Source: Hypnocyclicus thermotrophus (GTDB taxonomy: Bacteria > Fusobacteriota > Fusobacteriia > Fusobacteriales > Fusobacteriaceae). Taken from it: a stretch of 64,000 nt of DNA. Positions 1 to 13,529 of this stretch are shown in pieces (position 1 is the stretch's first letter; every line of letters starts with the position of its first letter). The notes under the pieces were generated by a model. The model worked only from the letters and a program-made list of their open reading frames with translations, was not told the DNA's origin and did no database searches. A program made the position numbers and the translations under genes. The stretch covers positions 1 to 64,000 of the forward strand of contig NZ_SOBG01000001.1 of assembly GCF_004365575.1 (NCBI RefSeq), read 5' to 3'.

Positions 1-143
1 ATTTTCCCTATTTCAAAATAATCTACTCCTACTTTTACACATGTTTCATATACTTTCTTTACAAATTCATCACTAAAATGATAGTTATTTATTAATCCCC
101 CATCTCTTATTGTACAATCAAGTACTTTTACATCTTTTTTCAT
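1..143 (-). CDS. DRE-TIM (HMGL-like) aldolase, 5' end only
   Basis: Only the first 47 codons are visible; the gene runs off the left edge. The start ATG at 143 has a strong GGAGGTG ribosome site seven to eight bases upstream. The N-terminus reads LDCTIRDGGLINNYHF, the DxTxRDGG metal-binding motif of the HMG-CoA lyase / isopropylmalate synthase / 4-hydroxy-2-oxovalerate aldolase superfamily, followed by a region ending VDYFEIG that fits the next beta strand of the TIM barrel. These enzymes make or break C-C bonds with a divalent metal. The substrate cannot be told from this fragment. It is the first gene after an attenuator-type leader with tandem Trp codons, so it or later genes in its operon may be tied to tryptophan supply (inference). 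Confidence 0.8.
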   Translation of the reverse strand, partial: MKKDVKVLDCTIRDGGLINNYHFSDEFVKKVYETCVKVGVDYFEIGK

Positions 144-160
144 AATTCTTTTCACCTCCA

Positions 161-200
161 AAAAAAAATAAAAACTCTGATTCAAAAAATGAACCAGAGT
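161..200 (-). terminator. Second leader terminator, just before the aldolase
   Basis: An 11-bp stem (200-190 with 184-174, one G-T wobble) with a five-base loop is followed by a T-rich tract (173-161). It sits between the first attenuator terminator and the aldolase ribosome site, so the leader carries two terminators in series. Its left arm CTGGTTCA (197-190) can also pair, with one wobble, with TGAATCAG in region 2 of the leader. Confidence 0.75.
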
Positions 201-232
201 AAAAAAAATCCTGCTCTATAAAATAGAACAGG
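201..232 (-). terminator. First leader terminator (regions 3-4)
   Basis: A 10-bp stem (232-223 with 219-210, one wobble) with a three-base loop is followed by an A and eight T residues on the minus strand. The left arm overlaps the segment that pairs with the leader-peptide coding region, so this hairpin competes with an antiterminator. Confidence 0.8.
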
Positions 233-261
233 TTTATAATAACATAATTTATTATTTCGTA

Positions 262-339
262 TTATAATATGGCAAAACCTGATTCATATTGATTATTCAA
301 TTTAGAATTTTTTTGCCACCAATATAGAAATCTTATCAT
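262..339 (-). CDS. 25-residue leader peptide with Trp-Trp
   Basis: The ORF starts ATG at 339 with a GTGGTGAG ribosome site about five bases upstream, begins MIRFLYWWQKNS and ends ESGFAIL before TAA at 262-264. Tandem Trp codons at positions 7-8 fall exactly at the base of a competing RNA stem, which is why I read it as a regulatory leader peptide rather than a chance ORF. It lies between a consensus promoter (377-405) and the double terminator. The peptide itself is not expected to have a function. Confidence 0.75.
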   Translation of the reverse strand: MIRFLYWWQKNSKLNNQYESGFAIL

Positions 340-376
340 TTATCTCACCACTTTTTATATATTTTTATTTTTAATA

Positions 377-405
377 AGTATATACTTTTATGATGCATTT
401 GTCAA
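377..405 (-). promoter_or_regulatory. Consensus promoter of the Trp-leader operon
   Basis: On the minus strand there is a perfect -35 TTGACA (405-400), a 17-base spacer and -10 TATACT (382-377). The expected transcription start near 370 leaves about 30 bases before the leader-peptide ATG. Confidence 0.85.
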
Positions 406-420
406 TTTTTATTTTCAAAT

Positions 421-446
421 AAAAAAAACACTCAATATGAGTGTTT
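421..446 (-). terminator. Terminator of the tRNA operon
   Basis: A 9-bp perfect stem AAACACTCA/TGAGTGTTT (446-438 with 434-426) with a three-base loop is followed by a run of T on the minus strand. It lies downstream of the tRNA-Tyr gene and separates the tRNA operon from the Trp-leader promoter. Confidence 0.8.
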
Positions 447-11463: not shown

Positions 11464-11650
11464 ACCCACCGTTAGATAAGGAAAGTCTTGTGAAAATCAA
11501 GCACAGCCCCCGCTACCGTTAAAGTCGGAATGCTTATTAACTTATTAAGAATAATTTCTTAATAATATAACTTCGGTGGGAAGTAATAATAACAATAAAT
11601 TATACTTCTCTCCCATAATATTAAAAACAAATTAAACTGGGAGGTTTTTT
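11464..11650 (+). promoter_or_regulatory. Cobalamin riboswitch with SD-sequestering platform
   Basis: The conserved core is visible: GGAAAGTCTTGTGAAAATC, AGCACAGCCCCCGC and a B12-box-like AAAGTCGGAATGC. Outer stem P1 pairs CCCACCG (11465-11471) with CGGTGGG (about 11574-11580). After P1, GAAGTA (about 11579-11584) can pair with TACTTC (11603-11608), while CTCCCA (11610-11615) can pair with TGGGAG (11638-11643), which is the ribosome site of the receptor gene. Ligand binding should favour P1 and the SD hairpin, so control is probably at translation. A TATAAT at 11458-11463 abuts P1 too closely to be clearly its promoter. Confidence 0.9.
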
Positions 11651-11651
11651 T

Positions 11652-13529
11652 ATGAAAAAAATTTTGTTGAGTTCTTTACTTTTTTTATCATCTTTATCCT
11701 TTTCAAATACTGATTTTTTAAATGATTCCATTACATTAGAATTAAAAGATAGTATTATTACAGCAGAAAAATTTGAAACACCAATAAGAGATACTACTAA
11801 AAATGTGTATATTATTAACAAAGAAAATATACAAAATAGTGGGGCTACAAATATTGTTGAACTATTAAAAACTATACCAAGTATTTTTATTGGTAGTGGA
11901 TATACTAATGAAGGTATTATTGACTTTAGAGGACAAGGAGAAACCTCTAAAAGTAATGTATTGATTTTAGTTGATGGAATATCTCAAAACAGCATTGATA
12001 TGTCTGGACCAGATTTGAGTATTATTGATATAAACAATATTGAAAGAATAGAGGTTATTCCATCTAGTGGCGTTGTTTATGGTGATAAAGCTGTTGGTGG
12101 GGTTATTAATATAATAACCTCAAATAATAAAAATAATATAAAATTAGATGTAGGTTCTTATGGATATAGTAATTCTGCTTTAAATACTTCTAATACTTTC
12201 GGTATTTTTACTATAAATAATAATTTTTCAAAAACATTTAAAGAGGGATACAGAGAGCATAGTAATTATAACAAAGAAAATTTTGGCACTGATATAATTA
12301 TAAATATTAATTCAAATAATAAATTAACTTTTACTTATGATTATAATAAATCTTTTTATAATTATGCTGGTTCATTAACAAAAGCTCAAGTTGAAAATAA
12401 TAGAACAGATTCTATATCAGGAAAAGGTAGTACTTTTAATAGAAAAAATAATTATTCATTAAATTATAATTATGAAAGTAATAAATTAAAATTAGAAAAT
12501 AAAGTTAGTAGCTATAATAAGTATAGTGAAGGTTGGTCTAAAATAAATACAGCCTACTTCAGTAATAATTTAAAGATAAAATATAGCTTTAGTAATTTTA
12601 ATATTATAAATGGAATAGATTTTAGTGAAGCAAGTTCAAAAACAAATTCTACTAATAAAATAGAAAAAAATCAAATTGGAATGTTTTCTTTAATTAATTA
12701 TTCTATTTTAGATAATTTAATAATTAATGGTGGATATAGAAATGAAACTACAAAATTAGATTATTTTACAGGTAAAGAAAAAAAATATAATCAAAATCTA
12801 TTTTCAGCTGGTATAAATTATCTTTACTCTGATACTGGTAATGTTTATCTATCTTTTGAACAAAATTATAGAACTCCAACTACAGATGAGTATCAATATG
12901 CAATCTATAATTGGGCTACTTATGAAATAACTGGTTATGGATACAAAGAAAATTTAAATCCTCAAAAATCGACTACAACAGAAATTGGACATAAAGAATT
13001 TTTTGCCAATACATATATAAACACAACTATATTTAATACTATTACAACTAATGAAATTTTTTATAATCCTTCTACATTTAGTAACGAAAATATTGATGGT
13101 ACTACTTTAAGAAATGGTATAGAATTTTCTACAAAAACTAATATAAAAAATATAATTTTATCTCAAAGTTATACATATTTAATTGCTAAAATAAATGATG
13201 GTCAATATAAAAATAAATTGATTCCATGGGTTCCAAAAAATAGATATAATGCTTCTATTAATTTTAAATTAAATAAATTAAACTTCGAATTAGATTATAA
13301 TTTTGTAGGTAAAATGTACTCTATATCAGATTGGAATAATCAATATGGAAAAATTAATTCTTATTCTGTAGTTAACTTTACATCAAATTATAAATTTAAT
13401 AATATTAATACTTATTTCGGTATTAAAAATCTAACAAATACTAAATATTATGATTATGTTACTTATGGTTCTAGTTATTATCCTGCAGAAGAAAAAAGTT
13501 ATTACATTGGTATAAATTACGAATTTTAA
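11652..13529 (+). CDS. btuB: TonB-dependent cobalamin receptor, BtuB-like
   Basis: A 625-residue outer-membrane receptor. The first 19 residues are a signal peptide (KILLSSLLFLSSLSFS). A TonB-box-like stretch DSIITAEKF is followed by the plug domain (residues about 35-150; VDGISQNS, IERIEVIPSSGVVYGDKAVGGVINIIT) and a 22-strand-type barrel ending in aromatic YYIGINYEF. Its translation start lies under the cobalamin riboswitch, which makes a cobamide the likely ligand. It is followed by TonB. Confidence 0.92.
   Translation: MKKILLSSLLFLSSLSFSNTDFLNDSITLELKDSIITAEKFETPIRDTTKNVYIINKENIQNSGATNIVELLKTIPSIFIGSGYTNEGIIDFRGQGETSKSNVLILVDGISQNSIDMSGPDLSIIDINNIERIEVIPSSGVVYGDKAVGGVINIITSNNKNNIKLDVGSYGYSNSALNTSNTFGIFTINNNFSKTFKEGYREHSNYNKENFGTDIIININSNNKLTFTYDYNKSFYNYAGSLTKAQVENNRTDSISGKGSTFNRKNNYSLNYNYESNKLKLENKVSSYNKYSEGWSKINTAYFSNNLKIKYSFSNFNIINGIDFSEASSKTNSTNKIEKNQIGMFSLINYSILDNLIINGGYRNETTKLDYFTGKEKKYNQNLFSAGINYLYSDTGNVYLSFEQNYRTPTTDEYQYAIYNWATYEITGYGYKENLNPQKSTTTEIGHKEFFANTYINTTIFNTITTNEIFYNPSTFSNENIDGTTLRNGIEFSTKTNIKNIILSQSYTYLIAKINDGQYKNKLIPWVPKNRYNASINFKLNKLNFELDYNFVGKMYSISDWNNQYGKINSYSVVNFTSNYKFNNINTYFGIKNLTNTKYYDYVTYGSSYYPAEEKSYYIGINYEF

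Follow-up and report, generated by a model that had tools for sequence, protein, structure and literature searches.

A ribosome-mediated tryptophan attenuator probably lies at the left end of contig C1 in the Hypnocyclicus thermotrophus genome (G000; 2.22 Mb, 17 contigs). It belongs to a leader family that in Fusobacteriaceae usually stands ahead of trpE or of trpX-type genes for tryptophan transport, and here it would control the second copy of an aldolase gene. The stretch analyzed, referred to as the window, comprises the first 64,000 nucleotides of this contig, and the leader and its target gene are both read on its minus strand. On that strand, a tRNA-Gly/Lys/Tyr cluster (861-608) is followed by dispersed repeats, a terminator (426..446) that keeps the leader promoter insulated from the tRNA cluster, the promoter, the leader, two terminators, a ribosome-binding site and the aldolase gene. 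The dispersed repeat of ~70 bases (AGTAAAATTTATGAGCAAGCGTAAAAATCT..AAGATTTTTTAAGCAAAAGGTTTT) is present in about two copies ahead of the leader (461-600), and other parts of the genome have it in tandem arrays (1510-1870 and 2062-2278 of locus L004; C1:112675-113936). A phage origin of the leader region was considered and rejected, the phage collection having no match to the region. Further into the window, an AdoCbl-II (cobalamin) riboswitch (11469-11543) lies ahead of a TonB-dependent-receptor-like gene (11652-13529), an ordinary arrangement.

The preliminary description of this DNA had reported a perfect promoter. A sigma-70-type promoter is present at that place (377..405, minus strand), but its –10 box is TATACT, i.e., TTGACA-17-TATACT matches the consensus at 11 of 12 positions; the exact pattern occurs only once in the window. 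Downstream of it lies the 25-codon leader peptide ORF that had been described (MIRFLYWWQKNSKLNNQYESGFAIL; 262..339, minus strand), with its two Trp codons at 321-316. Its Shine-Dalgarno sequence, GGTGAG (344..349), is weak and sits 4 nt ahead of the ATG at 339, at a place where the leaders of relatives have GGAGG or GGAG, and the ORF is homologous to the ..RFTWWWQN.. leaders of Fusobacteriaceae. The genome has 29 TGGTGGNAAAA sites, of which only two belong to a short ORF led by a Shine-Dalgarno sequence: this leader and that of the genome's own trpE operon.

Three pairings, all on the minus strand, organize the leader. Region 1 (311..319) overlaps the second Trp codon and pairs as 319-311 with 277-269, a stem that includes the earlier 317-311/277-271 pairing. 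Region 2 (269..287), the antiterminator strand, has three possible partners: region 1, region 3 and the 5' arm of terminator 2. Region 3 (226..235) is the 5' side of the antiterminator/terminator switch, and the 2:3 pairing, which forms in a fold without regions 1 and 4, joins 281-275 with 235-229 and is lengthened by GAA (285-283) with TTC (228-226). The 1:2, 2:3 and terminator pairings are mutually exclusive: when the RNA was folded minus the terminator 3' arm, hiding region 1 gave the 2:3 antiterminator (10 pairs with a one-base bulge), and leaving region 1 in place gave 1:2. The folding of the leader beats 200 of 200 dinucleotide shuffles (z = –4.3). The exclusive pairings thus lie where the preliminary description had placed them and switch as it had proposed, and the coordinates bear out its overlap of region 1 with the second Trp codon and its stop codon beside region 2. 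Two features of the class of trpL-type ribosome-mediated attenuators are present, i.e., a translatable ORF, led by a Shine-Dalgarno sequence, with tandem Trp codons that are conserved in relatives, and three exclusive pairings with region 1 over the Trp codons and region 2 beside the stop codon.

Two terminators follow in tandem on the minus strand: terminator 1 with a T8 tract (201..232; 232-223 with 219-210) and terminator 2 with a T-rich tail (165..200; 200-190 with 184-174), the latter absent from the earlier reading. Both are strong (–12.7 and –14.3 kcal/mol). Tandem terminators are found in most leaders of relatives, to which the window leader conforms, and in those leaders region 2, with its CAGG, is often complementary not only to terminator 1, which it disarms, but also to the 5' arm of terminator 2. 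In the window, ten pairs (two of them G-U; –11.3 kcal/mol) can form between 287-278 and 198-189, and about 1% of shuffled leaders do equally well; compared with 49 terminators of the same genome, a set that includes the leader itself, region 2 has one equally good partner, and single-clade values for this complementarity range from 0.01 to 0.5. The complementarity of region 2 to both terminators is suggestive of a shared antiterminator, not proof of one; if it is shared, a single ribosome stall would open both gates.

To place the leader among its relatives, 98 Fusobacteriota genomes were searched at the DNA level. Two clear homologues were found (67-71% identity); in each, a leader ORF (..TWWWQNN..) lies ahead of an ABC-transporter substrate-binding gene. 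The gene product is ABC_sub_bind (PF04392) and matches NCBIfam TrpX at E = 1e-88, under the strict TrpX cut-off. A comparable leader was present at 18 of the 30 best loci of this trpX-type protein in the phylum, and RNAalifold applied to 11 leaders recovered the 1:2 stem and the terminator unaided. A covariance model, R1, then detected the leader in 22 of the 98 genomes, across Fusobacteriaceae, with Trp-Trp(-Trp) codons in nearly all homologous leaders. Every stronger R1 match whose downstream gene was read lies ahead of a trpX-type gene or trpE, the trpE leaders having had no part in R1 training; the sampled trpE genes are Pfam anthranilate synthases, one of them above the NCBIfam equivalog cut-off, and two weaker matches (L220 and L221) are less clear.

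Covariation was assessed in 30 distinct leaders. In the 1:2 stem and the terminator, 14 of 18 pairs showed two-sided changes that keep the pairing, compared to 6.3 in shuffles, and 93.5% of cells were paired, compared to 39-52% in slid register, with 0 of 500 shuffles as high; the alignment was fitted to the covariance model, and this fit favors the result. For the 2:3 pairing, 84% of cells were paired versus 25-56% when slid, and covariation was not above shuffles because the pairing is nearly invariant. A second model, R2, was trained without the window and built from the model-fitted alignment, since MAFFT misplaced the terminator when the window was left out. R2 scored the window leader at 59.7 bits (E = 3.7e-8), its only match in 136 kb of the genome. 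Relative to the family, the window leader has two Trp codons rather than the three of most relatives, as well as a weaker Shine-Dalgarno sequence, and it is the only member found ahead of an aldolase. The homologous leaders ahead of trpX and trpE, together with the covariation, strongly support the trpL-type logic that had been proposed.

Other leaders came to light in these searches. Some trpX leaders, all from one genus (L183, L185-L187, L192 and L193), form a divergent subgroup (..RLTWWCKN..) that has no clear CCTGTTC first terminator and whose switch may be wired differently. The trp operon of H. thermotrophus itself (trpE, an extra GATase-like gene, trpG, D, C, F, B and A) is likewise preceded by a WW leader, MVTIFKSWWKNEYLESTKYIICSIISKNDTIY, and a terminator (13852-14140 of L030, contig C2), too diverged for model R2. 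An ordinary SAM riboswitch (L030 15494-15587) lies near this operon, directly ahead of an S-adenosylmethionine-synthetase-like gene.

Behind the window leader, the contig end cuts a DRE-TIM (HMGL-like) aldolase gene after its first 47 codons (1..143, minus strand; Shine-Dalgarno GGAGG at 159-155). This fragment shares 74% identity with a full-length HMGL-like protein of another member of the same family (G006). The 47 codons alone have no PF00682 match; the full-length orthologue scores 68.9 against a cut-off of 29. The nearest solved chain is PDB 3dxi, a 'putative aldolase' (E = 1.6e-37). The full-length orthologue falls far short of the NCBIfam cut-offs for 4-hydroxy-2-oxovalerate aldolase (121.6 versus 229 bits and 110.1 versus 286 bits). 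The aldolase is rare in the phylum, with close copies only in these two genomes and a distant match in a third.

The second aldolase copy of H. thermotrophus, copy B on C10, has a longer N-terminus and lacks the leader; upstream of it lies a divergent chemotaxis-receptor gene. Copies A (window) and B differ by one synonymous SNP over 134 compared bases and part exactly at ATG-AAA-AAA; at the other end there is likewise one synonymous SNP, with abrupt divergence a few codons before the stop. The middle of both copies is missing, as a collapsed repeat at contig ends. Of the two C-terminal halves, one is at the right end of C1 and the other at the left end of C11, and since a convergent gene follows each, the transcript probably carries no gene besides the aldolase. 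We infer that the window copy joins to C11, because C1 would otherwise be a circle. The coupling of leader and aldolase is known from one genome, in which the gene is cut at a contig end within a collapsed repeat.

The junction itself offers a clue to its history. In relatives, trpX genes start GGAGG..ATGAAAAAA, matching the junction of copy A at ATG-AAA-AAA over a short stretch of similarity, and trpX was not found in the H. thermotrophus genome at E <= 1e-25. The leader, ribosome-binding site and start codon of copy A thus seem to be the parts that belong to trpX in relatives. In the simplest history that these traces suggest, a duplicated aldolase core would have replaced trpX behind its leader, the copy being joined to the trpX-type leader via duplication or recombination. 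Similar traces would be expected from an older, differently regulated paralogue homogenized by gene conversion.

The preliminary description had held that the attenuator would be contradicted by orthologous aldolase loci lacking the Trp codons or the pairings. In the letter, this is what was observed: among close aldolase orthologues, a tandem-Trp leader was found at 0 of 30 by ORF scan and at 0 of 29 loci by leader model. The attenuator itself is not refuted by this, because the relevant relatives are the trpX and trpE leaders. The aldolase does have a tie to aromatic amino-acid genes in other lineages. At 4 of 72 parsed loci, from Latescibacteria/Gemmatimonadota (L078, L079, L080 and L093), it lies within a trp cluster in the order trpC-trpF-tyrS-aldolase-trpB, followed by trpA in three of the four; an apparent aldolase-TrpB fusion in L078 was rejected, the scaffold having a run of N. 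At three Bacteroidota loci among the same 72, a chorismate mutase gene is directly upstream of the aldolase. In a tally of 64 co-directional neighbors, PALP (mostly trpB), tyrosyl-tRNA synthetase, chorismate mutase and RNase H were among the commonest, and one neighbor had a DAHP-synthase domain. A survey of Bacteroidota found the aldolase in 1 of 297, too rare to gauge its linkage to chorismate mutase. The linkage to trp and aromatic genes probably reflects two independent events in two lineages, and it is a lead toward a tie of the aldolase to tryptophan or aromatic metabolism. With this linkage, Trp control of the aldolase would be sensible rather than odd. Of the two options that had been offered for the downstream gene, i.e., a missed tryptophan pathway or a new operon, the data favor an existing Trp leader placed in a new arrangement, with some support for a tie of the aldolase to tryptophan or aromatic metabolism.

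The elements, their exclusive pairings, the homology and the covariation are read from the sequence, and from them we infer stalling, a response to tryptophan and the use of terminator 2. When charged tRNA-Trp is scarce, the ribosome would stall at the tandem Trp codons and cover region 1, so that 2:3 pairs, terminator 1 is blocked and transcription continues. When tryptophan is plentiful, the ribosome would get to the stop codon beside region 2 and block 2:3, and transcription would stop at terminator 1 or, as a backup, at terminator 2. The arrangement suggests that the enzyme is made when tryptophan runs short. A bolder reading, in which one stalled ribosome disarms two tandem terminators via a shared strand throughout the family and the H. 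thermotrophus aldolase acts in aromatic amino-acid metabolism, is on balance less likely than not.

A serious competitor, to which we give a little less than an even chance, is that the attenuator works and that the aldolase came to lie behind it by chance, so that Trp control has no metabolic meaning. Copy B and the close orthologues scanned have no leader, copy A resembles a recent duplicate with new ends, and many aldolase orthologues have no aromatic-gene neighbor. Against this, trpB, trpA, chorismate mutase, a DAHP synthase and tyrS are prominent beside the aldolase in other lineages, the leader and the reading frame are intact, and both SNPs between the copies are synonymous. It is improbable that the leader is a decayed trpX remnant, attenuator-like and no longer switching: it has one Trp codon fewer than most relatives, a weaker Shine-Dalgarno sequence and no trpX behind it, but every pairing is kept, 1:2 is even improved from G-U to G-C, and the strong terminators, the 11/12 promoter and the leave-one-out score of 59.7 bits all speak for a working switch.

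Even less credit goes to an assembly artefact that joined leader to aldolase. Both aldolase copies do stop at contig ends in a collapsed repeat; however, the junction lies beyond the overlap shared by the ends, and a copy-specific SNP comes after it, which means that the underlying reads carry their own allele, and a new Shine-Dalgarno sequence and an in-frame start codon stand at the junction. That the element is a T-box or another tRNA- or ligand-binding riboswitch is scarcely credible. The streptococcal trpXYZ genes are under a Trp T-box (PMC9382623), but no family of Rfam 15 matches the window leader at its gathering score and none is credible up to E = 1, and what is conserved is a translated ORF containing Trp codons. 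The preferred reading remains a trpL-type attenuator.

With a covarying Trp-leader family that Rfam lacks, Fusobacteriota would be a further phylum with leader-peptide attenuation. The leader would mark the trpX-type genes of Fusobacteriota as tryptophan genes, the tandem terminators form a directly testable double switch, and the link to the aldolase is a concrete lead on an enzyme family that also occurs in trp operons elsewhere. No description of Trp leaders in Fusobacteria was found in the open full-text literature; subscription papers were beyond reach, and a prior mention is possible. Leader-peptide attenuation had long been regarded as restricted to Proteobacteria and Actinobacteria, to which bacilli were added by a study that does not mention Fusobacteria (Naville and Gautheret, 2010; PMC2965389). 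The His leaders of hisS/hisZ in bacilli described there resemble the window in being leader-peptide attenuators outside those two phyla, and differ in amino acid, genes and phylum. The streptococcal trpXYZ T-box likewise achieves antitermination of the same type of transporter gene upon Trp starvation, but a long T-box RNA senses uncharged tRNA directly, without a leader peptide. The window gene shares the HMGL-like DRE-TIM barrel with the 4-hydroxy-2-oxovalerate aldolases DmpG/MhpE and with 3dxi, but its orthologue is far below the NCBIfam cut-offs for the former. The closest parallel is Escherichia coli trpL (RF00513), with its ORF led by a Shine-Dalgarno sequence, tandem Trp codons overlapped by region 1, exclusive 1:2, 2:3 and 3:4 pairings and an intrinsic terminator. 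In contrast to trpL, the window family has no detectable homology to it and no match to the RF00513 Trp_leader model, region 2 of the window lies inside the ORF just ahead of the stop, two tandem terminators are both complementary to region 2, and the family precedes trpX-type genes, trpE and, here, an aldolase. The mechanism is of a known kind, trpL-type attenuation; what varies is the phylum, the presence of two terminators in tandem and the gene that has been captured.
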